This document shows positions 23,479-46,724 of a stretch of 64,000 nucleotides of DNA, piece after piece. The notes below the pieces were generated by a model, which was not told the DNA's origin, made no database searches, and saw only the letters and a list, made by a program, of their open reading frames with translations. Numbering within the stretch: position 1 is the stretch's first letter; every line of letters begins with the position of its first letter. This stretch comes from Siphonobacter aquaeclarae. GTDB lineage: Bacteria > Bacteroidota > Bacteroidia > Cytophagales > Spirosomataceae. A program made the translations under genes and the position numbers. Where the stretch lies: assembly GCF_900103285.1 (NCBI RefSeq), contig NZ_FNGS01000004.1, positions 62,001-126,000 of the forward strand. The letters run 5' to 3'.

Positions 23479-23561
23479 GGGCGAAACAAAATAGGGATGT
23501 ACGGAAACAGGGGGATTCGTCGGCATACCGGCCGGAGTACCTCCGGTTCAGCGCGTATCCG

Positions 23562-23588: not shown

Positions 23589-23656
23589 GGAACGATTCCG
23601 GTAGAAAGCTACCAAAAACTGTCCGGATTCGTACAGTCCCTGTTCGCAGGCGTACA
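23589..23656. promoter_or_regulatory. Paired dyad operators (probable enhancer sites)
   Basis: TGTCCGGATTCGTACA (23620-23635) and TGTTCGCAGGCGTACA (23641-23656) share the symmetric pattern TGTNCG-N4-CGNACA and are exactly 21 bp apart, two DNA turns. A weaker match (GGAACGATTCCGGTAG, 23589-23604) lies 31 bp further out. The same pair with the same spacing occurs at 38606-38642. Sites of this form near a sigma54 promoter fit an NtrC-family activator. Confidence 0.7.
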
Positions 23657-23709: not shown

Positions 23710-23725
23710 TGGCACGCGTTTGGAA
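23710..23725 (+). promoter_or_regulatory. Sigma54-like promoter of the ECF sigma/ABC cluster
   Basis: TGGCACGCGTTTGGAA matches the sigma54 consensus TGGCACGNNNNTTGCW fully in the -24 half and partly in the -12 half (GA instead of GC after the 10-bp spacer). It lies 55 bp downstream of the paired dyads. The predicted start is near 23736, about 110 bp before the ECF sigma gene. Confidence 0.5.
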
Positions 23726-23844: not shown

Positions 23845-24375
23845 ATGGAAACGCTTTGCCGAACAGATCGTACTGCCTTAGTGGAAGCCTGCCAGCGTGG
23901 TGAGCGCTCCGCTCAGTATGAGCTTTACCGGCTGTATTCCAAGTCGATGTACAACGTCGCCTTTCGTATTCTCAACCACACCGCTGAAGCCGAAGACGTG
24001 CTGCAGGACGCCTTCGTCAAGTTTTTCCAGCGGCTGAGCGATTTTCGCCAGGAAAGCACCGTCGGCGCCTACCTGAAACAGATTGTGGTGAACGAAGCCC
24101 TGAACCGTCTGCGCCAGCGCCGGGTGAAATGGGCGGAAGTAGAAGAAGGCTACGAAGTGGCTCAGGAACCCGCACATGAGCCGGACGAGTGGGAAGTATC
24201 CCGCGTCCGTGCAGCGATGATGCGCCTCCCGGATGGTTTCCGGACGGTCCTGACCTTGCATCTGCTGGAAGACTATAGTCACGACGAAATTGCCGAAATG
24301 CTCCAGATTTCTGCCTCTACTTCCCGTACACAATACATGCGGGCGAAGAATAAGTTGAGGGAAATACTGAGCTGA
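23845..24375 (+). CDS. ECF-family RNA polymerase sigma factor
   Basis: 176 residues. Region 2 includes YRLYSKSMYNVAFRILNHTAEAEDVLQDAFVKFFQRL (cited in part), with the D-[AV]-L-Q-[DE]-[AT]-F motif. Region 4 includes MRLPDGFRTVLTLHLLEDYSHDEIAEMLQISASTSRTQYMRAK (cited in part), with the helix-turn-helix of RpoE-like sigma factors. No anti-sigma factor gene follows; instead come the HlyD-type adaptor and ABC genes on the same strand. It may be the output of the sigma54-type promoter upstream, giving a two-layer control of the cluster (inference). The start at METLCRTD is the only ATG with the full region 2. Confidence 0.92.
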   Translation: METLCRTDRTALVEACQRGERSAQYELYRLYSKSMYNVAFRILNHTAEAEDVLQDAFVKFFQRLSDFRQESTVGAYLKQIVVNEALNRLRQRRVKWAEVEEGYEVAQEPAHEPDEWEVSRVRAAMMRLPDGFRTVLTLHLLEDYSHDEIAEMLQISASTSRTQYMRAKNKLREILS

Positions 24376-25799: not shown

Positions 25800-26489
25800 A
25801 TGATTCAGATCAAAAATCTCAAGAAAGTCTACCGGACCGAAGAAATCGAAACGACGGCCCTCGATCACGTAAACGTCGAAATCGCGAACGGTGAGTTCGT
25901 GGCCATCATGGGTCCGTCGGGTTGCGGCAAGTCGACCCTGCTCAACGTCCTCGGTATGCTCGACAACCCGTCGACAGGAGAATACCACTTCTGGGGCGAG
26001 GAAATCTCCAAATACTCCGAGCGTCAGCGGGCGAAGCTCCGCAAGGGGAATATCGGCTTTGTCTTCCAGAGCTTTAACCTGATCGACGAACTGACGGTTT
26101 ATGAAAACGTCGAACTTCCCCTTCTCTACCTCGGCAAGTCGGCCTCGGAGCGCAAGGAACTGGTAGACGTTGTTCTCAACCGCATGAACATCATGCACCG
26201 GAAAGACCACTTTCCCCAGCAGCTTTCAGGCGGTCAGCAGCAGCGTGTGGCCATCGCACGGGCGGTTGTCGCGAAACCGAAGCTGATCCTCGCCGATGAG
26301 CCGACGGGTAACCTCGACTCCACCAACGGAGAAGAGGTAATGAAGCTCCTCCAGCAGCTCAACGAGGAAGGTACCACCATCATCATGGTAACGCACTCCC
26401 CGCACGACGCCAACTACAGCCACCGCGTCATCAACCTCTTTGACGGGCATGTGGTGACGGAGAATATTAATGCGAAGTTTCATATTTAG
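25800..26489 (+). CDS. ABC transporter ATPase, MacB/LolD type
   Basis: A 229-residue nucleotide-binding subunit. It has Walker [10 protein letters not shown] (38-46), Q-loop FVFQSFNL, signature LSGGQQQR (142-149), Walker B LILADEP (162-168), D-loop LDS and H-loop His in VTHSP. It is of the LolD/MacB/FtsE class that drives FtsX-like permeases by mechanotransmission. It is the only ATPase gene of this class near eight permease genes that follow on the same strand, so it is the likely shared motor for all of them. The C-terminus is slightly extended (NINAKFHI). A heptad hairpin starts right after its stop. Confidence 0.95.
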
Positions 26490-28949: not shown

Positions 28950-28952
28950 TTC

Positions 28953-29007
28953 AGCATGGGGCATGGGGCAGAGGGCCCTTTGCCCCATGCCCTTTGCCCC
29001 ATGCCCT
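28953..29007. repeat. Inverted heptad repeat (GGCATGG/GGCAGAG) before permease 2
   Basis: Left arm GCATGGGGCATGGGGCAG and right arm CCCTTTGCCCCATGCCC(TTTGCCCCATGCCCT) form a G/C-rich hairpin with almost no loop. The 3' edge touches the ATG at 29008. Confidence 0.85.
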
Positions 29008-31416: not shown

Positions 31417-31464
31417 TGGCAGAGGGCAGAGGCCTCGTGCTCCATGCCCTCTGCCCTCTGCCCC
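31417..31464. repeat. Inverted heptad repeat (GGCAGAG)n before permease 3
   Basis: GGCAGAGGGCAGAGGC and GCCCTCTGCCCTCTGCC are complementary arms separated by about 12 bp. The element occupies the whole gap between the stop of permease 2 and the start of permease 3. Confidence 0.85.
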
Positions 31465-33903
31465 ATGCTCAAAAACTACTTCCTCATCGCCCTGCGCAAT
31501 CTGTGGAAAAACAAGGTTTTTTCGCTGATCAACGTCGTTGGCCTCGCCGTCGGCATGGCCTGCTGCCTGCTCATCCTGCTGTACGTGCAGCGGGAGCTGA
31601 GCTATGACAAACAGCACGATCATGCGTCGGACCTGTACCGGCTCGTGACCGAATTTGTATCGGAGGAGAAGACCGACCGGTCACCCACGGCGGCGGCCCC
31701 GGTGGGCCCGGCCCTGAAGCAGGAATTTCCTGAAATAGCCGAGATGGCCCGGGTATTCGTGCCATTTTTCGAAGATGCCGCGATCCTGAAACGCATGGAA
31801 GGCGGCAGGACTGTTCAGTCGTTTTACGAAACGAAAGGATGCCTCGCCGACTCCACCTACTTCCGCGTTTTTTCCTATGATTTTCTGGAAGGGAATCCGG
31901 CAAAAGCGCTCGACAAGCCTAACTCCGTCGTCCTGACAGAGGCGATTGCCCGGCGGCTTTACGGAGACGCGCCGGCGTTGAACCGGATCGTCCGCATCAG
32001 CAGCAACAACGGAGATATCGACTTCAAGGTAACGGGCGTGGTACGCCCCAAAGGCCTCTCCCACCTCGACAATACCTATATCATGTCGCTGTCGAGCGGG
32101 AATATCGGAGAGTTTGTCCGGTCGGTGCGGAATTTCGCCGTCAACAACATGTTTTACACCTACGTCAAGCTCCGGCCCGGCGCTTCGGCAAAAGCCCTGG
32201 AAGCGAAGTTTCCGGCGTTTATCCGGAAGTACATGGGCGAAGACCTGAAGCGCGTAGCCTTCAAAAAGAACCAGTACCTGGAATCTGTCCCCCGTATTCA
32301 CCTGTATTCAGATACCGGCGCGCAGTTCGGCATCCGGGGCAGTATTCAGTATGTATACATTTTCGCGACGGTGGCGCTGTTTACCCTGCTCATCGCGTGT
32401 ATCAACTTCATGAACCTCAGTACCGCCCGCTCCGGCCGCCGCGCGGCAGAAGTCGGCGTCCGGAAGGTCATGGGCGCGGGCAGGGAATCGCTGATCGGGC
32501 AGTTTCTGGGAGAATCGATGGTTATCAGCTTCCTGGCGTTGCTGATTGCGGTATTTCTGGTGGAACTCACCCTGCCGGCGTTTAACCGGGTAGCCGGTAC
32601 TGATCTCTCGGTTTCCATCCTGCGGGACTACGACAAGCTCCTCATTTTTGTGGGACTGGCCTTTCTGACCGGTATACTCGCCGGCAGCTATCCGGCTTTT
32701 TACCTGTCGTCGTTCAACCCGGTACAGGTATTAAAGGGCAAGGGACGCAATACGCTGTCGGCGGCGCGTTTACGCCGCGCGCTGGTGGTGTTCCAGTTTG
32801 CGCTGTCGATCATGCTGATTGTCGGGTCGATGGTCATCTGGCGGCAGATGCAGTACCTGCGCGACAAAGACCTGGGTTTCGTGAAAGATCACCAGCTTGT
32901 CATACCGCTGCGAACCAGCCAGGCACAGGGGCACTACGAAGCGCTCAAACAGGCCAGCCTCCGGAATACCGGCATTGTATCTGCCTCGGCAGCAAGCAGT
33001 TATCCGGGTATTTTCACGCCGGGAGATCAGAATTTCTTCCGGGAAGGAAGAACGGTCGAGCAGAGCGTCAACGTCAAGATGAACCACGTCAACTTTGATT
33101 TTCTGGAGACGATGGGCTTCCATCTGCTGGCGGGGCGGTTTTTCTCTCCCCGCTTCCCGGCGGATACGGCGCAGCGGCTGGTACTCAACGAAGAAGCGGT
33201 ATCCCGGCTGGGTTATACGCCGCAGAACATCGTCGGGCAGCGCCTGTACTGGCAGGGCAGCGACGGCAAAGTTCCGTACTATGTCGTCGGCGTCGTCCGG
33301 GATTTTCACTTCATGGGTTTGCAGCAGCCTATCAACCCTTTCGGATTTGTACTGGCGCCGTGGGGCCTGAACTACATGGTATTACGGGTCAGGACGGATA
33401 GACCGTCGGGTATTCTGAAAACGCTGGAAGCCTCCTGGAAAACCCTCAACCCCGACGAACCGTTTGAATACCGCTTCCTCGACCAGGATTTTCAGAAGAA
33501 CTATCAGTCGGAAGAAAAAATGGGTACCGTCGTCGGATACTTCACTTTCATTGCCATTCTGATTGCGAGTCTCGGTTTGTACGGCCTGGCCGCCTTTACC
33601 GCCGAGCAGAAAGTCAAGGAAATCGGCGTCCGGAAGGTACTCGGAGCCAGCGTCGGTAGCCTGGTAGCGCTGCTTTCGAAAGACTTCCTGAAGCTGGTAC
33701 TCGCCGCTTTTGTCGTTGCCGTACCGCTTTCCTGGTATGCGATGGATAGCTGGTTGCAGGAATTCGCCTTCCGGACATCGCTGAGCTGGTGGCTCTTTGC
33801 CATCGCCGGGTGCGTCGCGCTGTTTATTGCCTTGCTGACGATCAGCAGTCAGACGCTGCGGGCCGCCCGTGTCAACCCGGTTAAAAGCCTGAAATCAGAA
33901 TAA
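31465..33903 (+). CDS. FtsX/MacB-like ABC permease 3
   Basis: 812 residues from MLKNYFLIALRNLWKNKVF; the seven codons upstream (from 31444) translate the repeat. Helix 1 covers VFSLINVVGLAVGMACCLLILLYV. The first unit has LLIACINFMNLSTARSGRRAAEVGVRKVMGA, the second AEQKVKEIGVRKVLGASVGSL (each cited as seen). VVGVVRDFHFMGLQQPINP marks the second periplasmic domain. The end NPVKSLKSE is standard. The stop is followed after one base by the ATG of permease 4, so translation of the two is probably coupled. Confidence 0.93.
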   Translation: MLKNYFLIALRNLWKNKVFSLINVVGLAVGMACCLLILLYVQRELSYDKQHDHASDLYRLVTEFVSEEKTDRSPTAAAPVGPALKQEFPEIAEMARVFVPFFEDAAILKRMEGGRTVQSFYETKGCLADSTYFRVFSYDFLEGNPAKALDKPNSVVLTEAIARRLYGDAPALNRIVRISSNNGDIDFKVTGVVRPKGLSHLDNTYIMSLSSGNIGEFVRSVRNFAVNNMFYTYVKLRPGASAKALEAKFPAFIRKYMGEDLKRVAFKKNQYLESVPRIHLYSDTGAQFGIRGSIQYVYIFATVALFTLLIACINFMNLSTARSGRRAAEVGVRKVMGAGRESLIGQFLGESMVISFLALLIAVFLVELTLPAFNRVAGTDLSVSILRDYDKLLIFVGLAFLTGILAGSYPAFYLSSFNPVQVLKGKGRNTLSAARLRRALVVFQFALSIMLIVGSMVIWRQMQYLRDKDLGFVKDHQLVIPLRTSQAQGHYEALKQASLRNTGIVSASAASSYPGIFTPGDQNFFREGRTVEQSVNVKMNHVNFDFLETMGFHLLAGRFFSPRFPADTAQRLVLNEEAVSRLGYTPQNIVGQRLYWQGSDGKVPYYVVGVVRDFHFMGLQQPINPFGFVLAPWGLNYMVLRVRTDRPSGILKTLEASWKTLNPDEPFEYRFLDQDFQKNYQSEEKMGTVVGYFTFIAILIASLGLYGLAAFTAEQKVKEIGVRKVLGASVGSLVALLSKDFLKLVLAAFVVAVPLSWYAMDSWLQEFAFRTSLSWWLFAIAGCVALFIALLTISSQTLRAARVNPVKSLKSE

Positions 33904-33904
33904 C

Positions 33905-36241
33905 ATGCTTGCTATCCGACTCGCCTGGAGAAGCCTGTGGAAAAACAGGCTCTTCACGGCTATTAACCTCACCGGCCTGGCGCTCGGTATTTCCTGCAGC
34001 CTGATTATCTGGATGTGGGTGAAAGACGAGTTGCGCTACGATGCCTTTTACCCCGAAAAGGAAGACCTTTACCTGGTCCGGCCCGTCACCAACCGGCAGG
34101 GAGATATCCAAACCGGTTTCATGACGCCCGGTCCGTTGCTGCCGGCGATTCAGAAGGACATTCCGGAAGCGGCTTACGTAGCCCGGATCGGCTATGCACC
34201 TCCGCTCCTCGTGAGTGCCGGTCCTGTGGCGCAGAAGGAAGATGGGTTTTATGTCACAGACGATTTCTTCGGTGTCTTCCGGCTGCCGGCCCTGGCCGGA
34301 GATCCGGCAAAGGCGCTCACCGCTCCCGGTACCATCGTCATTTCCCGGAAACTGGCGGAGAAGTATTTCGGTACCTGGAATGCTGTTGGGCGACGTCTCA
34401 ACCTCGACCGCAAAACAGACTACCTCGTCGGGGCGGTTGTCGAAAACGTGCCGATGCATTCGTCCATCCGGTTTGACTGGGTGGTGAATTTCCGCGTACA
34501 GGAGCAGGAATGGATGAAGCGCTGGGGTAATACGTCGTTCCGGACCTACGTACGCCTGCGTCCCGATGCCGAGCGGGCGCTCGTTGCCCGGAAACTCCGG
34601 AGTGTATTTTCCCGCAATGGCGGCGACGGGGATACGTATGCCTTGCTACAGCCGGTATCCGACCTGTACCTCTACGGCAAGTATGAAAAAGACATTCCGA
34701 CGGGCGGCCGGATTACGTATGTGCGGATTTTTTCCCTCGTGGCCGTTTTTATTCTGCTCATCGCCTGTATCAATTTCATGAACCTGGCGACGGCCCGGTC
34801 GGGGCAGCGGGCGCGGGAAATCGGCGTCCGGAAGGCCATCGGCGCAACCCGCTTTACGCTGATCCGGCAGTTTCTGAGTGAATCGGTGCTGACAAGCGCG
34901 CTGGCAGCGGTAATCGCCCTGTTGCTGGCAGACCTATCCCTTCCGACTTTCAACAACCTCTTTCACAAGGACTTAACCTTTGATTTAGTATCAACCGAAA
35001 ACCTGCTCACTTTTGCCGGTATCGTGGTGGTGACGGGCGTGCTGGCGGGTAGTTATCCGGCTCTTTTTCTGTCGTCGCTTCTGCCTGCACGGGTATTGAA
35101 AGGGACGTTTACGGTCGGAAAGCGAACGCTGTCGTTCCGGAAATCGCTCGTTGTTTTTCAGTTCGCGATTTCGACGTTTCTATTGATCGGTGTCGCAGTC
35201 GTATCCCGCCAGATGAGCTACATTCAACATCAGCCGCCGGGGTATGACAAGGCACACCTGGTGTATGTTCCGCTGGAAAATCAGACCTACGACAAGCTGG
35301 AAACCTATCGCCAGGAAATACTCCGCTCGCCGGATGTGGTTGCGGCCAGCCCGACGCAGGCGCTGCTGATGAACATCGAAAGCTATTCCGGCGATCTCGA
35401 ATGGCCCGGACGGAAGCCAGGCCGGGAGGTACTTGTCTCCGCTGCCTGTACCGGCGCCGATTTTGCCCGGACGGCGGGTATTCCGCTTGTCGCGGGCCGC
35501 GACTTTTCCACCGCGCCCGGCGACTCCAACGCCTACCTCATCAACGAATCCGCCGCGCGCCTCATGGGCATGAAAGACGCAGTGGGTCAGCAGGTTTCGT
35601 TCTGGAACGGAAAAGGACCTGTTGTCGGCGTGATGAAGGACTTCCACCTGCAATCGTTTCACTCTCCGATCAAACCGCTGATTCTGGTGCGGCTGCCGGA
35701 AAATTCTTCGTACCTCTTTGTCCGCATACAGCCCGGCAAAACCCGGGAGGCGCTGGCGCATATCCAGGCTGTTACGAAGCGGTTTAATCCGGATTATCCG
35801 GCTGATTATCATTTTGTGGACGAGGAATTCGGGCGGATGTATGAAAGTGAATTACAGGTACATATGCTCGTCCGGTACTTCGGGGGGATGGCTATCTTTA
35901 TTTCCTGCCTGGGGCTTTTTGCACTCGCGGCCTTTTCGACGGAGCAGCGTACCAAGGAAATCGGTATCCGCAAAGTCATGGGCGCGGGTGTCGGGCAGAT
36001 TGTCCTGCTGCTCTCGGGAGACTTCCTTCGGCTGGTATTCTTCGCGCTGGTACTGGCGGTGCCGGCGGCATGGTGGACATTTTCCCGCTGGCTCGAAACG
36101 TTTCAGTACCGTGTTCCGCTTGATGGGTGGATCGTCTTCGCCGGGTGTTTTGCGGCGCTGTCCATTGCGTTTGTCACCGTCAGCAGCCATACCTTGCGGG
36201 CCGCCCGCGTCAACCCCGTCAAAAGCCTGAAATCAGAATAA
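33905..36241 (+). CDS. FtsX/MacB-like ABC permease 4
   Basis: 778 residues, the shortest of the set. The start MLAIRLAWRSLWKNRLFTAI lacks the N-Y-L-K-I-A motif of most others. First coupling motif REIGVRKAIGATRFTLI, second KEIGIRKVMGAGVGQIVLLLSGDF; VVGVMKDFHLQSFHSPIKPL lies in the second periplasmic domain. It sits 1 bp after permease 3 and its stop is 1 bp before the ATG of permease 5, so 3, 4 and 5 form a tightly packed block without repeat DNA. This contrasts with the spaced genes before and after and hints that the block moved or duplicated as a unit (inference). Confidence 0.93.
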   Translation: MLAIRLAWRSLWKNRLFTAINLTGLALGISCSLIIWMWVKDELRYDAFYPEKEDLYLVRPVTNRQGDIQTGFMTPGPLLPAIQKDIPEAAYVARIGYAPPLLVSAGPVAQKEDGFYVTDDFFGVFRLPALAGDPAKALTAPGTIVISRKLAEKYFGTWNAVGRRLNLDRKTDYLVGAVVENVPMHSSIRFDWVVNFRVQEQEWMKRWGNTSFRTYVRLRPDAERALVARKLRSVFSRNGGDGDTYALLQPVSDLYLYGKYEKDIPTGGRITYVRIFSLVAVFILLIACINFMNLATARSGQRAREIGVRKAIGATRFTLIRQFLSESVLTSALAAVIALLLADLSLPTFNNLFHKDLTFDLVSTENLLTFAGIVVVTGVLAGSYPALFLSSLLPARVLKGTFTVGKRTLSFRKSLVVFQFAISTFLLIGVAVVSRQMSYIQHQPPGYDKAHLVYVPLENQTYDKLETYRQEILRSPDVVAASPTQALLMNIESYSGDLEWPGRKPGREVLVSAACTGADFARTAGIPLVAGRDFSTAPGDSNAYLINESAARLMGMKDAVGQQVSFWNGKGPVVGVMKDFHLQSFHSPIKPLILVRLPENSSYLFVRIQPGKTREALAHIQAVTKRFNPDYPADYHFVDEEFGRMYESELQVHMLVRYFGGMAIFISCLGLFALAAFSTEQRTKEIGIRKVMGAGVGQIVLLLSGDFLRLVFFALVLAVPAAWWTFSRWLETFQYRVPLDGWIVFAGCFAALSIAFVTVSSHTLRAARVNPVKSLKSE

Positions 36242-36242
36242 C

Positions 36243-38600
36243 ATGGAACAGCTCCGCTCCGCCTGGAGGAGTATCCTCAAAAACAGGACCTTTTCGCTGA
36301 TCAACGTCACCGGCCTTGCGCTTGGGACAGGAATCGCGCTGACGGTCTTCTGGATCGTCCGGTTCGAGACGGGCTTCGATACCTTCCGGCCGCATGCGGA
36401 GCGGTTCTACCGGCTGCGCAGCCATCAGAAAACCGGCGAATACAACTCGCACATTCCACAGGGGGTTATCCTCGCGCTCAATACCCGCATCGCCGGCGTC
36501 GAGAAGGCGGCCAACGCCTACAAACGGGGAAACGCCACGATCCGCGTCGGACAGCAGGTATTCCTGGAGAAACGCTGCTACTTTGCGGACCCGGTTTTCG
36601 CCGGACTGATCGGAATGAGCTGGGTATCCGGATCTCCGCAGACTTCGCTTTCCCGGCCGGATCAGGTAGTTCTGGACGAACGGACGGCACAGCGGCTCTT
36701 CCGGGGCAATGCCCTCGGAAAAACGCTCCGGTTTAACAACGAACGCGATCTGACGGTATCCGGTATTGTCCGCGCGGCGCCGGCCAATTCGGAGTTTCAG
36801 ATGGGGATAGTCATTTCCCGGGAAACCCTGAAACGTATGGACGCCGGGTATCAGCACGAAGGATATTGGGACGGCGGCGACTCCGGGCATCAGGGCTTTG
36901 TCCTCCTGAAAGAAGGAGCAAGCCCGAAGACCGTTGAAACCCTGCTCAACCGCTTCACCCGACAGCGGAAAGACACGCAGTATGACTCGTTTGAGCTGAT
37001 TCCCATTGCCGACTCACACTTTGATTCCCAGGCTGATACCTTCAGCTACTACCTGCCAAAATGGATGATCTATGCGCTGATCAGCACGGGGATTTTCCTG
37101 ATACTGATTGCCTGTATCAATTTCATCAACCTCGCGACGGTTCAGGCCCTGCAAAAAAGCCGGGAAATGGCCATTCGCAAGCTGCTCGGCAGCAGCCGCA
37201 GTCGCCTGATGGCCCGGCAGCTGGTGGAAACCGGATTGCTGACGGCTGTCTCTATTCTGCTGGGCTGCCTCCTGGCGGAATGGCTGCTGTCTTGGTCGGA
37301 TCAGCTGCTGAACACGGAAGTACGCCTCGCCCCGGTGTGGAACGGCGGTACCCTGCTCTTTCTGCTTTGCCTGGGCGTAGGGGTTACCCTGCTGGCAGGC
37401 CTGTATCCGGCGCTTCTTGCCTCCGGTACAGCACCGGTGGCCATTCTGCGGAGTTCGTTCCAGCGGCTGTCTATCGGCGGGGTTTCGCTACGTAAAACGC
37501 TGATTGTCGGGCAATTCGCAGTCGCGCAAATCCTTGTGGTCTGTACGCTGGCAGGACTGCAACAGTTGAACTACATCCGGAAGAAAGACCTGGGCTTTTT
37601 CCGGGAAGGTATCCTGACAGTCGAAATACCCGACCGGAAACCCGGACTCCGTGCCGGTTTGCGGGAGGAACTGCTGGCCAATCCACATATTCAGGAAGTT
37701 ACCTATGGGTTGTCGACGCCGTCGAGCCCGACCAACAACTGGTGGACCAACGTTGAATCGCCTCTGTTACAGGGCGGAAAGGAGCTTTTCCAGGTCCAGC
37801 ACACGGATACAAACTACCTGTCTTTCTTCCATATTCCGCTGCTGGCGGGGCGGGGACTGACAACAGCGGATAGCAATCAGGTCGTCCTCGTCAATGAAAA
37901 AACAGTCCGGCAGCTGGGATTGAAACAGCCGGAGCAGGCGTTGGGCCGCTCACTGACTTTCTGGAACAGGACCTGGACAATTGTGGGCGTGGTGAAAGAC
38001 TACCATTCCCAGGACCTGAAACAGGGTATTCAGCCGCACGTGATCTGGTATGCGCCGTGGAATTTCCAGCAGGCCAGCCTGCGGGTCGACGGCCGTGATC
38101 TTTCCGGTACGCTTGCGACGGTCGAAAAGGCCTGGAAGCGCCGCTTTCCGGACTATGCATTCCGCTATTCCTTTCTGGATCAGTCACTTGGCGAATTTTA
38201 TGCGAACGATGAAAAAATGACGCGGTTTCTGACGCTCTTCGCCTGCGTCGGGATACTCATCGGCTGCCTGGGCCTGTACGGGCTGGTATCCTTCGTTTGC
38301 GTGCAGCGCACGAAAGAAATCGGTATTCGGAAAGTACTGGGCGCCAGCGTACCGGGAATACTACTGCTATTGTCGAAAGACTTCGTAAAGCTCGTCCTCG
38401 TAGCGGCGGTTATCGCGACGCCGGCAGCCTGGTATATCCTCGATCGCTGGCTGAGCGAGTTTGTATACCACGTCCCGGTTGAGGCATGGGTATTTGCGGC
38501 GACGGGTCTGCTGTCGGTGGTCGTGGCGCTTGGCGCGGTATCTTTTCAATCGGTGCGCGTCGCGCTGCTCAATCCCGTCCGGAGTCTCAAATCGGAATAG
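36243..38600 (+). CDS. FtsX/MacB-like ABC permease 5
   Basis: 785 residues from MEQLRSAWRSILKNRTFSL, again without N-Y-L-K-I-A. The first coupling motif is the most altered of the set (REMAIRKLLGSSRSRLMARQ), and the first-unit helix reads LIACINFINLATVQA. The second unit is canonical (QRTKEIGIRKVLGASVPGILLLLSKDF). The first periplasmic domain begins FETGFDTFRPHAERFYRLRS. The end is NPVRSLKSE. It begins 1 bp after permease 4 and closes the packed block; after it comes a 144-bp gap containing the internal sigma54-type promoter. Confidence 0.93.
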   Translation: MEQLRSAWRSILKNRTFSLINVTGLALGTGIALTVFWIVRFETGFDTFRPHAERFYRLRSHQKTGEYNSHIPQGVILALNTRIAGVEKAANAYKRGNATIRVGQQVFLEKRCYFADPVFAGLIGMSWVSGSPQTSLSRPDQVVLDERTAQRLFRGNALGKTLRFNNERDLTVSGIVRAAPANSEFQMGIVISRETLKRMDAGYQHEGYWDGGDSGHQGFVLLKEGASPKTVETLLNRFTRQRKDTQYDSFELIPIADSHFDSQADTFSYYLPKWMIYALISTGIFLILIACINFINLATVQALQKSREMAIRKLLGSSRSRLMARQLVETGLLTAVSILLGCLLAEWLLSWSDQLLNTEVRLAPVWNGGTLLFLLCLGVGVTLLAGLYPALLASGTAPVAILRSSFQRLSIGGVSLRKTLIVGQFAVAQILVVCTLAGLQQLNYIRKKDLGFFREGILTVEIPDRKPGLRAGLREELLANPHIQEVTYGLSTPSSPTNNWWTNVESPLLQGGKELFQVQHTDTNYLSFFHIPLLAGRGLTTADSNQVVLVNEKTVRQLGLKQPEQALGRSLTFWNRTWTIVGVVKDYHSQDLKQGIQPHVIWYAPWNFQQASLRVDGRDLSGTLATVEKAWKRRFPDYAFRYSFLDQSLGEFYANDEKMTRFLTLFACVGILIGCLGLYGLVSFVCVQRTKEIGIRKVLGASVPGILLLLSKDFVKLVLVAAVIATPAAWYILDRWLSEFVYHVPVEAWVFAATGLLSVVVALGAVSFQSVRVALLNPVRSLKSE

Positions 38601-38605: not shown

Positions 38606-38642
38606 TGTCCGGAATCGTACAAGAACCGTACGGTTCCGGACA
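38606..38642. promoter_or_regulatory. Paired dyad operators inside the permease array
   Basis: TGTCCGGAATCGTACA (38606-38621) and CGTACGGTTCCGGACA (38627-38642) both match TGTNCG-N4-CGNACA or its near-symmetric complement and start 21 bp apart, as at 23620-23656. Because the two copies are mutually complementary, they can also be drawn as one 14-bp hairpin; the matching pair elsewhere, which is not a hairpin, favours protein binding. Confidence 0.72.
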
Positions 38643-38697
38643 GGTTTCTGCAAACAACATACTGTTTTTCAGTAGATTACTATTCCTGATTTTCAGG

Positions 38698-38713
38698 CGG
38701 CATGCTTTTTGCG
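38698..38713 (+). promoter_or_regulatory. Sigma54-type promoter of permease 6
   Basis: CGGCATGCTTTTTGCG has GG (38699-38700), a 10-bp spacer and GC (38711-38712), and matches TGGCACGNNNNTTGCW closely. It lies 56 bp downstream of the paired dyads. The predicted transcription start near 38724 is about 20 bp before the ATG at 38745. Confidence 0.68.
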
Positions 38714-38744: not shown

Positions 38745-41189
38745 ATGTTCGCCAATTACCTGAAAATCGCCTTCCGGAATTTGCTGCGGCACCGGTTCTT
38801 TTCGTTCATCAATGTCGTCGGACTGACATTGGGCATGACCTGTTGTTTCCTGATCATGCTTTTTGTCCGCAGCGAGTTGAGTTACGATCGGTTTCAGGAA
38901 AAATTCGACCGGCTGTACCGGGTGACGTACCTTCCGAAATTTGCGGGCATGCCGAAGGGTTTGCACGTCATCCCGCCGGTTGCCGCTCCGCTGATGACGT
39001 CGTACTTCCCTGAAATGGAGGCTGTTGCGCGCCTGTTCAACCGCAGCGCATCCCTGGAAGCAACACGCCCGGAAGGGCCTGTCCGGTTTGAAGAGGAGCG
39101 TTTTTTCTTCGCCGATCCGGACGTGCTGAAGCTGTTTTCCTTTCATTTTCTGGAAGGAAATCCGGCCAAAGCGCTCACCAATAACTTTTCGGTTGTGCTG
39201 ACAGACAAGGCGGCCAAACGCTTTTTCGGAGACGGCCCGGCACTCGGTAAAACCCTGCTGATGAGCGGAAAGTATCCGCTTACCGTTTCAGGCGTGATCG
39301 AAGAGCTGCCCGCCAACTCGCACATCCACATCGATGCGATGGCCAATTACGAGACCATGTTCTCGACGATGAGTAAGGAAGGGAAGGAAAACCTGCATCA
39401 GAACTGGATCATCAGTCATTCGTCGACCTACGTACTGCTCAAGCCCGGCCAGGATCCTGCCCGGATCAATGCCCGCTTCCCGCAGTTTCTGCAGACGCAT
39501 GCCTGGAAGGAATTCGCGAAAGACATTGAATACAAGCTCCAGCCGCTGGGGGATATTCACCTCCGGTCTGACCTGATGTCGGAAGTGGAGCCGGTCGGCA
39601 ATCAGAATACGGTGTATATTTTCATCGGCATCGCCGCGATCACGCTGCTGATCGCCGGTATCAATTTCGTGAACCTGGCGACGGCGCGCTCCCTGCGCCG
39701 CGCGAAGGAAGTAGGCATGCGGAAGGTACTCGGCGCCGACCGCAAGCAACTGATCGGGCAGTTTCTGGGCGAATCACTTTTGCTGAGTTTGTTGGCGTTT
39801 CTCTTTTCCATTTTGCTGACGGAAGCCCTTTTCCCCGTCTTCAATGAACTGACACAGAAGGATTTCTCTTTCCGCAGTAGTTTCGGAGACCTGCCTTTGC
39901 TGGCGGGTATGGTCGGGTTATTTCTGCTGGTGGGCGTCCTCGCCGGCCTGTATCCGGCCTTCTTTATCTCCGGCTTCAAGCCTGTCGAAACACTGAAGGG
40001 GCAGTTTTCCAGCGGCAAGGCAAAAGGTGGTATTCTGCGGCAAAGTCTGCTTGTGTTTCAGTTTACTGCCTCCGTGGCGCTGATGATTGGCACGCTGGTT
40101 GCCTACCGGCAGCTGGCCTACATCCGGAATCAGGAGCTGGGCTTTGTTAAGGATCATGTGGTGACGGTTCCGTTCAAGAGCCAGGATCTCAACGCGATTT
40201 TCGATCAGCCGGACGACAGCCTCGCTACCCGCCTGCAAACGTTCCGGAATATCCTGCTGCGGAACCCGGCGGTCCGGGAGGTAACCCTGGCCAACCAGCG
40301 CATCGGCGTCGGCGGAACCCGGCGGGGTGTTGTTCCGGAAGGTTTTACCGGGAAAGACAAGCTGTTTGCGATGAGCATGACGGTCGACTACCACTTCATC
40401 CCCGCGATGGGCCTGCAGGTAATCGCCGGACGGCCTTTCTCCGAAAAATATGGCACCGATCTGAAAGAAGGCTTCATCGTGAATGAAACGGCCGTGAAGC
40501 GGTACAAATGGGGTACGCCGGCAGAAGCCATCGGCCGGAAGTTTAACCTCGAAGGCAAACACGGAAAGATCATCGGCGTGGTGAAAGACTTCCATGCGGA
40601 ATCGCTTTTTCTGCCGATCGATGTCCTGGTTATGGACCTCAATCCCCGGATACTGAACGTCTTCACGATGAAAATCAGCCCGGAGAATACGGCGCAGACC
40701 ATCGACTTTATCCGCCGGGAATGGAATACCAACTTCCCGCAAAAGGTATTTCAATATGAATTTCTGGACCGGGACCTGTCCCGTGCCTACGACGCCGAGC
40801 AGCGACTGAGCAGCATCATCGGATACTTTGCCGGGCTGGCGGTATTCATTTCCTGCCTGGGGCTGTTCGGACTGATTGCGCTCGCGGCCCAGCAACGGAC
40901 GAAAGAAATCGGTATCCGGAAAGTACTGGGAGCATCGATCAGTCAGATCGTCGTGCTTTTGTCGAAAGATTTCCTGCGGCTGGTCCTGCTGTCGATTCTG
41001 ATTGCCGGTCCGATTGCCTGGTATTTCATGGACAAATGGCTGCAGGCGTTCGCCTACCGCATCGATATCGCCTGGTGGATGTATGCTGCGGCCGGCCTGG
41101 CAGCTCTGACCATCGCCTTTGCGACGGTCGGTTTTCACAGTGTCAAAGCCGCCGTGGTGAATCCGTCGAAGAGTTTGAAGTCGGAGTAG
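38745..41189 (+). CDS. FtsX/MacB-like ABC permease 6
   Basis: 814 residues from MFANYLKIAFRNLLRHRFFS. A start 12 codons upstream (38709) lies on the -12 element of the sigma54-type promoter and would precede the predicted transcript, so it was rejected. First coupling motif KEVGMRKVLGADRKQLIGQF; second KEIGIRKVLGASISQIVVLLSKDF; IIGVVKDFHAESLFLPIDVL in the second periplasmic domain. The end is NPSKSLKSE. It is the first gene of the second half of the array and probably heads its own transcript. Confidence 0.93.
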   Translation: MFANYLKIAFRNLLRHRFFSFINVVGLTLGMTCCFLIMLFVRSELSYDRFQEKFDRLYRVTYLPKFAGMPKGLHVIPPVAAPLMTSYFPEMEAVARLFNRSASLEATRPEGPVRFEEERFFFADPDVLKLFSFHFLEGNPAKALTNNFSVVLTDKAAKRFFGDGPALGKTLLMSGKYPLTVSGVIEELPANSHIHIDAMANYETMFSTMSKEGKENLHQNWIISHSSTYVLLKPGQDPARINARFPQFLQTHAWKEFAKDIEYKLQPLGDIHLRSDLMSEVEPVGNQNTVYIFIGIAAITLLIAGINFVNLATARSLRRAKEVGMRKVLGADRKQLIGQFLGESLLLSLLAFLFSILLTEALFPVFNELTQKDFSFRSSFGDLPLLAGMVGLFLLVGVLAGLYPAFFISGFKPVETLKGQFSSGKAKGGILRQSLLVFQFTASVALMIGTLVAYRQLAYIRNQELGFVKDHVVTVPFKSQDLNAIFDQPDDSLATRLQTFRNILLRNPAVREVTLANQRIGVGGTRRGVVPEGFTGKDKLFAMSMTVDYHFIPAMGLQVIAGRPFSEKYGTDLKEGFIVNETAVKRYKWGTPAEAIGRKFNLEGKHGKIIGVVKDFHAESLFLPIDVLVMDLNPRILNVFTMKISPENTAQTIDFIRREWNTNFPQKVFQYEFLDRDLSRAYDAEQRLSSIIGYFAGLAVFISCLGLFGLIALAAQQRTKEIGIRKVLGASISQIVVLLSKDFLRLVLLSILIAGPIAWYFMDKWLQAFAYRIDIAWWMYAAAGLAALTIAFATVGFHSVKAAVVNPSKSLKSE

Positions 41190-41495: not shown

Positions 41496-41509
41496 AATCT
41501 CCTAAACCA

Positions 41510-41800
41510 ATGTCATTCATCGCCGTACCCATCCCCCAACTACCTGGAAAACAGGAAATTGAGATCAACGTGGTCATCAACGGGCAGAAGCAGGACCTGC
41601 ATTACCGGGTGGAGCTGTTTCGTTGGGACGAATGCTCTACGCCGTCCTTCAACCGGGTGGAGTGCCTGCGGGAAATGCTCTCCACGTATGACAAGGAGTG
41701 GACGTTGTACTACATCGGCTCTCCGTCGGACGACTTCGTCCCTATTACGTTCGTTAAAAAAGAAGACCTCGTCAAGCAACGTGAGATGTTAACGGCATAG
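41510..41800 (+). CDS. Small protein inside the permease array, unknown function
   Basis: 96 residues with no signal peptide or membrane segment. The sequence alternates hydrophobic and charged residues (QEIEINVVINGQKQDLHYRVELFRW, cited in part), suggesting beta-strands, then a helix (VECLREMLSTYDKEW), then WTLYYIGSPSDDFVPITFVKKEDL. I do not recognise a family. It is almost certainly translated: it carries its own leader, and the ten N-terminal codons are preserved in similar form in the duplicated remnant upstream. Its place between permeases 6 and 7 suggests a cytoplasmic accessory or an unrelated insertion. A methionine at 41789 marks only the end (REMLTA). Confidence 0.65.
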   Translation: MSFIAVPIPQLPGKQEIEINVVINGQKQDLHYRVELFRWDECSTPSFNRVECLREMLSTYDKEWTLYYIGSPSDDFVPITFVKKEDLVKQREMLTA

Positions 41801-41863
41801 GGCCAGGGGCATGGAGCATGGGGTAATCCTGCTCTCCGCCCCATGCCCCATGCCCCCTGCCCT
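41801..41863. repeat. Inverted heptad repeat (GGGCATG/GAGCATG) before permease 7
   Basis: GGGGCATGGAGCATGGGG (left) and CCCCATGCCCCATGCCCC (right) are complementary, separated by about 20 bp. The right arm ends at the ATG of permease 7. Confidence 0.85.
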
Positions 41864-44281
41864 ATGCTCAGAAACTACCTGAAAATCGCCCTCCGGAACC
41901 TCTGGAGGAACAAGACCTATTCGGCCATCAATTTGGCGGGGTTGGCTTTGGGACTGGCTTCGTGCCTGCTCATTACCTTTTACGTCATCGACGAGCTGAG
42001 CTTCGACCGGTTCTATGGCAATGCCGACCGCGTCTTTCGCCTGAATGCCGACATCCGTTTCGGTGGCGCCGACGCCCATTACGCGACCACCCCTGTACCG
42101 ATGGGTCCGGCGGCGGTGCTGACCTACCCGCAGATTGAGCGCATGGCGCGTATCCGCGATGAGTCGCCGGGTATGATCTGGAAAGGCCAGGAAAAAATCC
42201 AGGAGCGACAGGTTTATGCAGACTCTACCCTTTTTGAGGTACTGGGACTTCCGCTGCTGCACGGCAATACGGCCAAAGCACTGACGCAACCGGGATCGGT
42301 CGTCATCACCGAAAAAATGGCGAAGAAGTACTTCGGCGTTTCGGATGCTACCGGGAAATCGCTGCTTGTCGGCGGCACGAAGCATTACCAGGTAACAGGC
42401 GTGCTGCCTGATTTCCCGGAAAATTCCCACCTGCGGGCAGATGTTTTTTACAGCATGACCGACTATCCGGATAACCTGTCGGACAACTGGCTCAGCAATA
42501 ACTACCTGACCTACTTTCTGTTACGCCCCGGTGCTTCGCCTGTAGAAGTAGAGCGTCAGCTCAATGAGCTATACCGGAAATATGCCGGTCCCCAGGCGCT
42601 GAAAACCCTCGGGGCTACTTTTGCCGACCTGGAAAAAGCAGGTAATTCTGTCAAGTATAGTCTGATTGCCCTGACCGATATCCACCTTCACTCCGGCCGG
42701 GAAGCGGAGCTCTCGCCTAACGGCAGCATTCAGTATGTCTATATCTTTTCGGCCATTGCGCTGTTCATATTGATCATTGCCTGTATCAATTTCATGAACC
42801 TGGCTACTGCCCGCTCCGCCCACCGGGCCCGGGAGGTAGGAGTCCGGAAAGTACTGGGGTCGATGAGCCGGGATCTGATCGGGCAGTTTCTGACGGAGTC
42901 TATCCTCCTCAGCCTGATGGCCTGTACCATCGCCGTACTGCTGGTGGAAATGGCGCTGCCGACGTTCAACAACCTGGCAGATAAGCACCTGACGCTCGGC
43001 CTGTTGCAGAGTTTCTACGTATTCCCTTTCCTGATTGGTATTGCCCTCTTCACGGGACTGCTGGCGGGAAGCTATCCGGCGTTCTACCTGTCTTCGTTTC
43101 AACCGGCGGCGGTACTCAAGGGCAAGCTGACAGCCGGTATGCGCAGCGGCCGGCTGCGCAGTTCGCTGGTGGTATTTCAGTTTTTTGCCTCGGTTTTTCT
43201 GGTGATGTGTACGCTGGTGATCTACCGTCAGCTCCGGTTTATCCAGGAAAAACAGGTGGGTTTCGACCGGGAGCAGGTCGTCATTCTCAACGACACCTAC
43301 GGCGCTCCCGCCAAACAGCTGAAGGAAGAGCTGAGCCGCATCAGCGGCGTGGAAAGTACCACGGTGGGCGGGTACCTGCCGGTACCGTCGTGGCGCAGCA
43401 ACGATACCTTCTTCCCCGAAGGTGAAATCAACCAGGAAAAAGCCGTGACGATGCAAAGCTGGGACATCGACACCGACTACCTCCGCACAATGGGTATGCA
43501 ATTGCTGAGCGGCCGCGGTTTCCGGGCGGATATGGCGACGGATTCGAACGCTGTCATTCTCAACGAATCCGCTGTCCGGCTTTTTCGTCTCCAAAAGCCC
43601 GTCGGCAGTCATATCGCGGAAATTTCTGACCGGAAAACCGGCAAAACCCGGGAACTGACCGTCATCGGAGTCGTCCGCAATTTCAATTATGAATCGTTGC
43701 GGGAACAAGTCGGCGCACTCTCCTTCCGGCTGGGGAAAGTACCCCAGGGCAGTACCTCGCTTCGCCTGCGGGCCGGAGAAATCCCGGCGACGCTCGATCA
43801 GGTAAAGCAGGTCTGGAACCGGCTGATGCCCGGCCAGCCCTTCGCCCCGAAGTTTATGGATGAAGCGTTTGACGGAATTTACCGGTCCGAGCAACGCATC
43901 GGTACTGTTTTTCTGTCCTTCGCCCTGATGGCGATTTTCATAGCCTGCCTCGGGCTCTTCGGGCTGTCGGCCTTTACCGCTGAGCAACGGACCAAGGAGA
44001 TCGGCATCCGGAAAGTACTCGGGGCGAGTATCACGCAGATCCTGTTGCTTTTGTCGAAAGATTTCGCCCGGCTGGTCATTATCGCGGCACTGCTGGCCTT
44101 CCCGCTCGGTTGGCTGGCGATGGACAACTGGCTGCAGGGTTTTGCCTTCCGCGTCGGTATTTCCTGGTGGATTTATGCAGTAGCAGGCCTGCTTGCCCTG
44201 TCTATTGCGCTGCTTACGATTGCCTCCCAGTCGATCCGGGCGGCGTCTGTCAACCCTGTTAAGAGTTTGAAATCGGAGTAA
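41864..44281 (+). CDS. FtsX/MacB-like ABC permease 7
   Basis: 805 residues from MLRNYLKIALRNLWRNKTYS; seven upstream codons (from 41843) translate repeat DNA. First coupling motif REVGVRKVLGSMSRDLIGQF after IIACINFMNLATARS; second KEIGIRKVLGASITQILLLLSKDF. In the second periplasmic domain the usual V-K-D-[FY]-H reads VIGVVRNFNYESLREQ, so the conserved Asp and His are replaced by Asn. The end is NPVKSLKSE. It is separated from permease 8 by 25 bp without repeat DNA. Confidence 0.93.
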   Translation: MLRNYLKIALRNLWRNKTYSAINLAGLALGLASCLLITFYVIDELSFDRFYGNADRVFRLNADIRFGGADAHYATTPVPMGPAAVLTYPQIERMARIRDESPGMIWKGQEKIQERQVYADSTLFEVLGLPLLHGNTAKALTQPGSVVITEKMAKKYFGVSDATGKSLLVGGTKHYQVTGVLPDFPENSHLRADVFYSMTDYPDNLSDNWLSNNYLTYFLLRPGASPVEVERQLNELYRKYAGPQALKTLGATFADLEKAGNSVKYSLIALTDIHLHSGREAELSPNGSIQYVYIFSAIALFILIIACINFMNLATARSAHRAREVGVRKVLGSMSRDLIGQFLTESILLSLMACTIAVLLVEMALPTFNNLADKHLTLGLLQSFYVFPFLIGIALFTGLLAGSYPAFYLSSFQPAAVLKGKLTAGMRSGRLRSSLVVFQFFASVFLVMCTLVIYRQLRFIQEKQVGFDREQVVILNDTYGAPAKQLKEELSRISGVESTTVGGYLPVPSWRSNDTFFPEGEINQEKAVTMQSWDIDTDYLRTMGMQLLSGRGFRADMATDSNAVILNESAVRLFRLQKPVGSHIAEISDRKTGKTRELTVIGVVRNFNYESLREQVGALSFRLGKVPQGSTSLRLRAGEIPATLDQVKQVWNRLMPGQPFAPKFMDEAFDGIYRSEQRIGTVFLSFALMAIFIACLGLFGLSAFTAEQRTKEIGIRKVLGASITQILLLLSKDFARLVIIAALLAFPLGWLAMDNWLQGFAFRVGISWWIYAVAGLLALSIALLTIASQSIRAASVNPVKSLKSE

Positions 44282-44306: not shown

Positions 44307-46724
44307 ATGTTTTCGAACTACCTGAAAATCGCGTGGCGAAACCTGGTCAAAAATCCGGTGTTTTCGCTGATCAATATTGTCGGGCTGACACTCGGACTCA
44401 CGGTTGTGATGCTGATCCTGCTGTTTGTGCGGGATGAAGTTTCGTACGACCAGTTTCATGAAAAAGGAGACCGGCTGTACCGGCTGGTGTCGACCTACAA
44501 AGCTCCCGACGGAAAGGAATTTCACAGCAGCATTACCGGCACGCCGCACGGCCCCGGTTTTCAGCGGGAGATCCCGGCTATCGAATCCATCTGCCGGGTC
44601 AAGGGCTGGGATATGCTGGTCAAGAAAGGTTCAGAAGGAATAAAGGAAAAAGTCGTCTACGTCGACTCCACTTTTTTCCATTGTTTTTCCTTCTCCCTGC
44701 TGAAAGGAAACCCGGAGAAAGTGCTGAGCGGACTGTCGTCGGCCGTCATCACCAATGAAATGGCCATGCGTCAGTTCGGGACGACAGACGTACTGGGTAA
44801 AACCCTCGAAATTGACCTGGACGGTAAGTTCGAGACGTTTTATATCTCCGGCCTGGCAGCGGCGTCGCCCATGAACTCTTCCCTGCGGTTCGACGTCCTG
44901 ATCCCCTTCGCGAAGTCCCTGCCGACCAGCGCCGAAGAACGGGCCAAGTCGGAAACCGACTGGATGAGCAGCCACCTCAATACCTTTGTTCTGCTGCATG
45001 AAAAGGCCTCTCCCGCGCAGGTACGGGCGCAGTTCCCCCGGGTATTCCAGAAATACGCCGGCGAGCAGCTCGCCAAACTCCGGAAAGACTACGGCATGAA
45101 GGAGTCGGTGGCTTATGACATCCAGCCGTACCCGGAAATCCACCTCAACAACCGGTATGGAATGGGCAACGGGCTGTCGGATGGTTCGAACGTAACCTAT
45201 TCCTATATCCTCCTGGGTATCGCCGGACTGATCCTGTTTATTGCGAGCGTGAATTTTGTGAACCTGACGCTGGCCCGGTCGCTCCGCCGGGGCAAGGAAA
45301 TCGGCATCCGGAAAGTAACCGGAAGTACCCGGGGACAATTGATTTCCCAGTTTCTAGGGGAATCGTTCCTGCTGACGCTGCTGGCGTTCTTCCCGGCGTT
45401 CGGATTGGTGGAACTGCTTCTTCCCTACTTCTCGGAATTATCGAATAAGACACTGAAAACCAGCTTCCTCGCTAATCCGGAAACCATATTGGGCTTCGCC
45501 GGGCTGTTGTTGCTGGTTTCTTTCCTGGCGGGCGCCTATCCGGCAATGGTCCTCTCGCGCTTCAAACCCGTCGATACGCTGTACGGGCGGTTCCGGCTGG
45601 GCGGGAAAAACCTCCTGGGCAAAACGCTGGTATGCGTGCAGTTTTCCATTGCTATTTTCCTGCTGATCGGCACGTTCGTGCTGCACAGTCAGTTCCGCTA
45701 CATCGCCGCTACGCCGGCCGGCTACCGGTCTGAAGGTATTCTCCGGGTCAGTATGCCCTGGGGCCGCGGGAATGCCACTGCTTTCCGGGATAAGGTAGTC
45801 CGGATACCAGGGGTCGAGAAAGTATCGCAGCGTTCGGGTGGCTGGAAATCGGCTTCCGGTTTTCACGTCAATCACAAACGCATTGATGAATCCATCTACT
45901 TTGAAGACATCGACGCGAACCACCTGCCGCTGCTCGAAGTGCCGATCGTAGCCGGGCGGAATTTTGACGCGGGCGTTCCGTCGGATTCCCTGAATAAGAT
46001 TCTGGTGAATGAGTCGTTCGTGAAAGCCTATTTCAAACCGGGTCAACCGGTCGTCGGACAATCCATCGAACGGCTGAGAGACGGCAATATCCTTGTCTCT
46101 CAGGAAATCATCGGCGTTGTGAAAGACTACCACCTGGGTTCACTCCGGGAAAAAATCCGCCCGATGGTCTGGTACCTGGGTAATCCGGCGAAAATGACGG
46201 GAGTATACCTGCAGGCAAAGCCGGGGTATACCGTTCTGCCGGCGATCGAGCGCGCCTTTCACCAGGCGGCACCCTACTCTACCTTCTCCTACACATTTCT
46301 GGAGGACGACCGGATGAGCGCCTATGGAGACGACACGCGCTGGCGGAAGATCATCACGTATGTATCAGCCATTTCGATCCTCATTTCGCTGCTGGGGCTT
46401 TTCGGACTGACGTCTCTCAGCCTCGAACAGCGCACCAAGGAAATCGGTATCCGGAAAGTACTCGGCGCGGGTGTCGGGCAGATTGCGCGGCTCGTGACGG
46501 TCGACTTCCTCCGGCTGATCCTCATCGCCGGCGTTCTGGCGATGCCGCTCGGCTATTATGCCTCGCAGCAGTGGCTGGAAGGGTTTGCCTACCGTATTTC
46601 GCTCGGCTGGGGCATTTTTGCCGGCGCCGGGCTGCTGGTGCTGGCCATTGCTATCCTTACTATCGGCAGCCAGGCGATCAAGGCCGCGCTGGTCAATCCG
46701 GTGAAGAGTTTGAAGGCGGAATAG
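44307..46724 (+). CDS. FtsX/MacB-like ABC permease 8
   Basis: 805 residues from MFSNYLKIAWRNLVKNPVFS. First-unit helix LFIASVNFVNLTLARS with coupling motif KEIGIRKVTGSTRGQLI; second unit EQRTKEIGIRKVLGAGVGQIARLVTVDF, where the L-L-L-S-K-D of the others is changed to R-L-V-T-V-D. IIGVVKDYHLGSLREKIRPM lies in the second periplasmic domain. The end is NPVKSLKAE. It is the last gene of the array; repeat DNA and a strong terminator follow before the SusC gene. Confidence 0.93.
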   Translation: MFSNYLKIAWRNLVKNPVFSLINIVGLTLGLTVVMLILLFVRDEVSYDQFHEKGDRLYRLVSTYKAPDGKEFHSSITGTPHGPGFQREIPAIESICRVKGWDMLVKKGSEGIKEKVVYVDSTFFHCFSFSLLKGNPEKVLSGLSSAVITNEMAMRQFGTTDVLGKTLEIDLDGKFETFYISGLAAASPMNSSLRFDVLIPFAKSLPTSAEERAKSETDWMSSHLNTFVLLHEKASPAQVRAQFPRVFQKYAGEQLAKLRKDYGMKESVAYDIQPYPEIHLNNRYGMGNGLSDGSNVTYSYILLGIAGLILFIASVNFVNLTLARSLRRGKEIGIRKVTGSTRGQLISQFLGESFLLTLLAFFPAFGLVELLLPYFSELSNKTLKTSFLANPETILGFAGLLLLVSFLAGAYPAMVLSRFKPVDTLYGRFRLGGKNLLGKTLVCVQFSIAIFLLIGTFVLHSQFRYIAATPAGYRSEGILRVSMPWGRGNATAFRDKVVRIPGVEKVSQRSGGWKSASGFHVNHKRIDESIYFEDIDANHLPLLEVPIVAGRNFDAGVPSDSLNKILVNESFVKAYFKPGQPVVGQSIERLRDGNILVSQEIIGVVKDYHLGSLREKIRPMVWYLGNPAKMTGVYLQAKPGYTVLPAIERAFHQAAPYSTFSYTFLEDDRMSAYGDDTRWRKIITYVSAISILISLLGLFGLTSLSLEQRTKEIGIRKVLGAGVGQIARLVTVDFLRLILIAGVLAMPLGYYASQQWLEGFAYRISLGWGIFAGAGLLVLAIAILTIGSQAIKAALVNPVKSLKAE

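Follow-up and report, generated by a model that had tools for sequence, protein, structure and literature searches.

The window analyzed here, a stretch of 64,000 nucleotides, contains eight long permease genes (permeases 1–8), and between the fifth and the sixth lies a segment, 38606–38713, whose layout recurs upstream at 23620. The question raised by this segment is whether it starts a separate transcription unit and, if so, which regulator controls it. As argued below from comparison of sequences, 38606–38713 is very probably a sigma54 promoter whose tandem operator serves the regulator encoded at 22084–23526, and probably one of at least eleven modules that are switched jointly. A sequence-only reading of the locus had proposed just such a separate sigma54 unit under the regulator acting at 23620, and the comparison supports that proposal: the module heads permease runs in six genomes, a sigma54-type regulator lies beside 23620, rpoN is present, and the same module is found beside relatives of the regulator in other phyla.

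Table 1. Features of the window and positions of module copies in the same genome
Feature	Position	Strand	Remarks
Histidine kinase, predicted partner	20537..21874	-	HATPase_c match
NtrC-type response regulator	22084..23526	-	receiver, sigma54 AAA+ with GAFTDA, Fis-type HTH; predicted activator
Operator pair of main exporter operon	23620..23656	+	two perfect dyads, 21 bp apart
−24/−12 element TGGCACGCGTTTGGAA of main operon	23710..23725	+	−12 = GA
ECF sigma factor	23845..24375	+	first gene of main operon
Periplasmic adaptor, HlyD/RND_mfp type	24489..25754	+	
ABC ATPase, MacB/LolD/DarD-like	25800..26489	+	
Permeases 1–4 of main operon	26577..36241	+	
Permease 5	36243..38600	+	last gene of upstream unit
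Distal operator dyad TGTCCGGAATCGTACA	38606..38621	+	0 mismatches to TGTNCGN4CGNACA
Proximal operator dyad CGTACGGTTCCGGACA	38627..38642	+	1 mismatch; 21 bp start to start from distal dyad
Dyad pair as inverted repeat	38606..38642	+	15-nt arms, 93% complementary, 7 nt between
−24/−12 element CGGCATGCTTTTTGCG	38698..38713	+	GG-N10-GC exact; 55 bp past dyad pair
Permease 6	38745..41189	+	MacB_PCD + FtsX, 814 aa; first gene of predicted unit
Small gene	41510..41800	+	96 aa
Permease 7	41843..44281	+	
Permease 8	44307..46724	+	
Window modules	23620 and 38606		
C7 modules	822473, 841522, 856346, 879924, 881255		
C6 module	111482	-	
C14 modules	796356, 961193, 280922		

The site between permeases 5 and 6 and its probable regulator

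As shown in Table 1, the 16-mer and its near reverse complement, which had been noted 21 bp apart, were both found, as were the GG-N10-GC element (an exact match) and, after it, the ATG of permease 6. However, the two 16-mers are not one split repeat, as had been thought, because each of them is itself a TGTNCG-N4-CGNACA dyad, which makes two dimer sites; judging from the family to which the regulator belongs, each dyad could bind one Fis-type dimer. The dyad pair begins 5 bases past the stop codon of permease 5, and the transcript start belonging to the −24/−12 element is predicted, by counting, at ∼38724. For permease 6 we chose the ATG at 38745, the open reading frame list opening the frame at an upstream TTG (38709). 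The likeness to the module at 23620–23725, which had been read as equal geometry, stands for the dyad spacing, 21 bp in both, but not for the gap to the −24 box, which is 53 bp there and 55 bp here; nor do the −12 boxes agree, with GA in the 23620 module and GC in the 38606 module.

Downstream of permease 6, the small gene encodes a protein of 96 residues for which no Pfam or NCBIfam match was found. The 320-bp gap between permease 6 and this gene (41190–41510) is packed with imperfect repeats, one of which resembles a degraded duplicate of the beginning of the small gene, and a terminator scan of 41150–41900 returned no terminator-like site. Runs such as CCCCATGCCCCATGCCC, a simple repeat, lie between genes at 41805–41868 and at L003 ∼4310–4345. 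At the Rfam gathering thresholds, a tRNA was the sole match in the window.

The matrix used for scoring was built from 26 modules taken solely from other Siphonobacter genomes, several of them orthologs of one another. Within the 64-kb window, the modules at 38606 and 23620 scored 51.0 and 50.8 bits, respectively, and the next plus-strand site that is not a module scored −2.5 bits; the best score among 20 Markov-1 random sequences of 64 kb (one strand) was 7.1 bits. Two reverse-strand scores in the window, 27.5 and 22.0, are both known modules read backwards. The strict dyad occurs 14 times genome-wide (6.19 Mb) compared with 2 occurrences of a reversed control pattern. These two comparisons, of the matrix score with the random maximum and of strict dyads with the control, bear out, together with the shuffled-sequence count that follows, the earlier contention that the recurrence is hard to explain by chance. 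When one mismatch was allowed, 7 dyads were found in the window compared with 2.1 ± 1.4 in shuffled sequence (none of 100 shuffles reached 7); across the whole genome, one-mismatch dyads (216 compared with 162 in the control) are too noisy to use. Two strict dyads, at C14:401234 and C18:266256, have no partner dyad and were taken as chance occurrences, as were the weak matrix hits at L004:14151 (15.3) and L022:8623 (10.1), which lie on the minus strand and have poor dyads. In the class-wide search of 295 genomes, the rows of which were left unsummed, strict dyads and controls numbered 9 and 1 in G225, 7 and 1 in G073, 10 and 5 in G242, and 5 and 22 in G001; because the counts go either way outside the own genome, the genome-wide dyad count was rejected as a class-wide marker of the regulator.

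The −24 box at the site under study reads CGGCAT, and GGCA is present in all 36 of the genus modules counted, although the module search itself required GGCA. The full GG-N10-GC pattern is present in 4 of the 36, the element at 38698–38713 being one of the four, and TTT occupies positions 10–12 in 32 of them; the −12 box of the genus reads CTTT followed by a loose end. The genome carries two copies of rpoN (C7:887690 and C19:221127, in L004 and L099), and two rpoN genes were found in each of the five genus genomes listed. Of the two, the one on C19 has diverged (its RpoN box reads SRRTVAKYRDQLGIQ) and adjoins its own sigma54 activator. The idea that the unusual −12 box is read by a dedicated sigma54, encoded by the C7 rpoN ∼3 kb after the ATPase-TolC genes, was dropped as unsupported because the RpoN boxes and the tree (which carries long-branch warnings and leaves some forks open) place the C7 copy among the family's ordinary members and set the C19 copy apart.

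The regulator gene is divergent to 23620 and lies beside the histidine kinase gene, and its product matched Response_reg (67 bits), Sigma54_activat (231 bits), and the Fis-type HTH (52 bits), all above cut-off. Across the genome, PF00158 gave 10 matches, five of them strong (>200 bits). In 27 ortholog loci scanned, 20 regulators, the window regulator included, matched the pattern used for the activator loop, and every one of these has GAFTDA. A paralog on C13 also has GAFTDA, the C19 activator has GAFTGA, and the C18 and C7 activators fall outside the pattern. GAFTDA is listed among the variants expected to keep activity in an excerpt of PMC4641369, and an excerpt of PMC10714721 leaves open whether it does. 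The recognition helix is nearly identical among the orthologs compared. With its receiver, sigma54 AAA+ domain, and Fis-type HTH, a kinase gene nearby, and tandem dyads upstream of a −24/−12 element, the system resembles those of NtrC/AtoC/ZraR-type regulators. It differs from them in several respects: the window regulator stays under the cut-off of all 25 models listed of the 84 NCBIfam models matched, it has GAFTDA for GAFTGA, its predicted operator is TGTNCG-N4-CGNACA, and the sites are spread over at least eleven places, mostly permease arrays.

Copies of the module in Siphonobacter and beyond

The sequence-only reading counted two copies of the module, a number that proved too low: at least eleven modules, each a dyad pair followed by a −24 element, are present in the own genome (G000; Table 1). 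As ∼334 kb of G000 were scanned (the 64-kb window plus 270 kb), further modules with two weak dyads may exist. In one of the eleven, C14:280922, the gap to the −24 box is 65 bp, which is one helical turn longer. The suggestion to check whether other permease operons carry the module was fruitful, since 27 of the 28 MacB_PCD frames of at least 782 residues belong, by position, to runs of genes on one strand that begin with a module, each run presumably forming one transcript. The exception, the long permease at C14:502045, had no matrix match. None of the eight short MacB frames (414–493 residues) has such a module, and two of the eight, on C13, lie near a variant pair with d = 19 that scored 27.7; among the stretches with short frames, L022 shows one weak match, the 10.1 hit given above, which does not look related. 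The module at C7:881255 heads genes for an ABC ATPase and a TolC-like channel.

At another C7 module, 879924 (L004:7924–8130), a stem, GCCCCGGT...ACCGGGGC-TTTTATTTT, with a tail was seen by eye within ∼100 bases past the −24/−12 element. It is absent from the terminator scan, which permits short loops only, and, standing ahead of any long gene, is perhaps a small RNA or a leader.

The same design was found in stretches of five other genus genomes. Strict dyads in the six genus genomes (own genome first) number 14, 6, 5, 10, 7, and 8, compared with 2, 2, 1, 2, 1, and 4 for the control. Where the regulator was covered, the order was regulator, module, ECF sigma factor, adaptor, ATPase, and permeases; elsewhere in these relatives, more modules lie within and ahead of permease runs, and the G338 stretch holds just two modules, both within arrays of permeases. 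An ortholog of the 96-residue small gene, followed by a permease, comes directly after an internal module in G313, G364, and G373, and an internal module within an array is therefore not peculiar to the genome of the window. Across the 36 genus modules, a count that leaves out the reversed reading of C14:796356 and does not include C14:280922, the gap to the −24 box is 53–55 bp in a search covering 50–58 bp only. In the Siphonobacter loci that extend as far as the ECF sigma factor gene (L029–L031; G313, G364, G352, and G373), that gene comes first in the sigma54-type operon; beyond the genus, tblastn at E 1e-8 matched it in none of 22 regulator loci. With this ECF sigma factor encoded at the head of the main operon, a further layer of control, a sigma54-to-ECF cascade, is possible.

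Relatives of the regulator were compared at 26 loci in named genomes, four in Siphonobacter and 22 outside the genus; a large share of the 22 comes from metagenome bins and could carry mistaken taxon labels. Outside the genus, the adaptor and ATPase genes lie on the opposite strand from the regulator in 18 of the 22 loci. Between the divergent regulator and exporter genes lies the dyad: 17 strict copies were counted, distributed over 16 of the 22 loci, where 29 permuted palindromes averaged 0.2, and 15 full modules (pair plus −24/−12 element) were found on the exporter strand, in 14 of the 22 loci, and none on the other strand. One of the 15, L033:2764, is an internal module of a Nafulsella array. 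The gaps of these 15 modules cluster at 41–42, 53–54, and 62–64 bp, ∼one helical turn apart, as predicted by binding on one face of the helix. Eight of the 22 loci had no full module, five of the eight still having a strict dyad. The pairing of regulator, dyad, and exporter was found in records titled Bacteroidota, Balneolaceae/Rhodothermia, Zixiibacteriota, Aminicenantes, Cloacimonadales, and Neomarinimicrobiota. Overall, sequence and comparison show that the modules exist, how they are spaced, that they stand ahead of permease runs, and that regulator and dyad occur together across phyla.

In the mechanism that we favor, each dyad would take up one regulator dimer, the two dimers sitting on the same side of the DNA at a distance of two helical turns, the bound dimers would form an AAA+ ring, and the ring would open RNA polymerase-sigma54 held at the −24/−12 element 53–55 bp downstream. 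The promoter at 38606 would drive a second unit starting at permease 6, and a signal from the kinase would, through the regulator, activate the satellite units at the same time as the main operon. We counted against this reading the unusual −12 box of the genus, GAFTDA in place of GAFTGA, a paralogous regulator on C13 with almost the same recognition helix, the class-wide dyad counts that go either way, the uncertain labels of the metagenome bins, and the 8 of 22 distant loci without a full module.

The pair-wide palindrome and other explanations

When folded as RNA, the pair at 38606–38642 is predicted to form a stem of ∼15–16 bp (−26.7 kcal/mol, z −4.6), and in most non-regulator modules the two dyads are mutually reverse-complementary even at bases that the consensus leaves free. 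Outside the regulator locus, 61.3 of 84 free positions paired in 14 ortholog groups, compared with 34.7 ± 4.8 when partners were redealt (the largest value among 4000 redealings was 54). In an alignment of 24 modules, hand-picked from 32 non-regulator modules with near-identical orthologs omitted, 47 cells held double-sided changes (compared with 17.4 ± 3.5), and the covariation score between the dyads was 0.339 (compared with 0.148 ± 0.018); pairing within each dyad showed no covariation (0.116 compared with 0.113). In the five regulator-locus modules, a mean of 2.2 of 6 free positions paired, and the fold z scores were −1.3 for 23620, −1.5 for L030, and −5.1 for L029, the last with an open centre; no pair-wide hairpin was predicted at 23620–23656. 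As the dyads pair and covary at free bases, the element could also form a hairpin of 15–16 bp. The totals of modules behind co-directional and divergent genes (26 and 11) are unreliable because the simple gene caller misread at least two rows, placing C14:796356 on the wrong strand and, at C7:881255, preferring an overlapping minus-strand frame over a co-directional DUF4097 frame; before C7:841522 it picked a short frame.

One explanation of this palindrome, which we regard as a serious possibility with somewhat less than an even chance, is that it was not selected as a hairpin and reflects either template-switch correction of close inverted dyads or DNA-level symmetry of the complex. It is compatible with the sigma54 switch. 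Consistent with it, the departures from pairing comprise 13 G-T, 12 A-C, and 14 others, and the equality of G-T and A-C departures gives no sign that pairing was selected in RNA rather than DNA; a near-perfect stem is also present ahead of a divergent gene, at G313 3012464, where the preceding gene belongs to the Na/H exchanger family. The regulator-locus modules are harder to accommodate: they have the same dyads and spacing but pair little at free positions, so that a template-switch or symmetry process would have to spare them.

A second explanation, also compatible with the sigma54 switch and an addition to it, is that the element is doubly used, as the DNA operator of the next unit and as an RNA hairpin that ends or protects the upstream transcript and so punctuates the arrays. 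We consider this possible but doubtful. The paired free positions, double changes, and covariation outside the regulator locus are what it would lead one to expect, and the regulator-locus modules with their low average have no upstream gene reading toward them. Eight of the folded non-regulator modules reached −20.7 to −28.7 kcal/mol (z −4.6 to −9.0), and modules lie 5 (38606), 22 (C7:822473), 25 (G313 3020360), and 30 (G313 3035593) bases past a co-directional stop. The long GC-containing stem past a stop codon and the T-rich sequence after several modules are reminiscent of intrinsic terminators, from which the element nevertheless differs in that its stem is also an operator and the tail at 38606, GGTTTCTGCA, is not a U tract; the terminator scan, moreover, did not return the 38606 hairpin. 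The near-perfect stem behind the divergent exchanger gene and the balance of G-T and A-C departures also count against double use. Further, the C6 module follows a co-directional frame and yet has no long stem (z −1.8; 1 of 6 free positions paired), in C14:280922 the pairing is confined to 2 of the 6 free positions, C7:856346 forms a pair of hairpins, the C7:841522 fold is weak (z −2.2), and the regulator-locus module of L029 folds well despite its location. The more specific proposal that the 37–38-bp modules of Siphonobacter combine an enhancer with the 3′ hairpin of the preceding transcript, kept in register by compensatory changes at non-consensus bases, is a shade more doubtful still.

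It is improbable that the modules are run by another regulator, chiefly the paralog at C13:372553–373902, alone or in cross-talk. The recognition helix of the paralog, TRSSLYRRLEKFG, is close to TRASLYRRLEKYG of the window regulator, and both have GAFTDA; with so similar a helix, the paralog could bind the modules too. However, the pair found ∼6 kb ahead of the C13 regulator (L024:3514, which is C13:366514) is of another kind: it has d = 19, its inner halves read CGCGCA and CGGGCA, and its −12 box is the canonical TTGCA. The module with d = 20–22 adjoins the window regulator and its relatives instead. The d = 19 variant on C13 and the near-identical recognition helix together constitute a natural specificity comparison. 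Finally, that the site is merely a repeat or a non-functional copy within a single transcript of permeases 1–8, as the co-directional flanking genes might suggest, is very hard to credit given the matrix score, the recurrence ahead of permease runs in six genomes, the near-constant −24 spacing in the 36 genus modules, and the 144 bp that separate permeases 5 and 6 (from the ATG at 38745), compared with 1–27 bp in the other gaps of permeases 1–6.

The exporter and what the module means for it

If 38606 is a sigma54 promoter under the window regulator, as we favor, one kinase-regulator pair would control 27 long permeases along with two ATPases, an adaptor, and a TolC-like channel, their genes being dispersed over the genome, and the shared ATPases would serve many permeases. 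In its adaptor, ATPase, and MacB/FtsX-type permeases the system resembles the darobactin exporter DarBCD and MacAB-TolC, and the best-scoring NCBIfam models were DarC for the adaptor and DarD for both ATPases. All of the darobactin cut-offs were missed, however (DarC, 211 of 450 bits; DarD, 290 and 250 of 375 bits; DarB, 93–98 of 700 bits), MacB, which is also among the nearest named exporters by profile, likewise stayed below its cut-off, and, unlike in DarBCD and MacAB-TolC, many permeases go with each ATPase here. Permeases 1 and 6, the two tested, match the ADOP model TIGR03434 over their whole length, but at 317 and 293 bits they stay below its cut-off of 622.3. The system may have a role in exporting peptides or defending against them, or in envelope stress.

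Control of this permease class by sigma54 has already been inferred statistically. Excerpts of PMC12316311 describe sigma54-type promoters as enriched before ABC-type antimicrobial peptide permeases, class Bacteroidia included, and present a computed sigma54 control of COG0577/FtsX-like permeases as a statistical inference; for such permeases, these excerpts mention neither a regulator nor an operator, tandem module, or array. In the open-access literature, we recognized no paper on this regulator, this operator, or modular permease arrays. Relative to those excerpts, what is new here is the regulator, the operator, and the modular arrays, and exporters tied to sigma54 only statistically there are given a precise, testable link from regulator to operator to target. 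The modules also provide a natural set of operators for separating DNA-protein constraints from possible RNA-hairpin constraints. Overall, the results suggest how one two-component system, by the copying of one module, could unite 27 dispersed permeases and a few ATPases.
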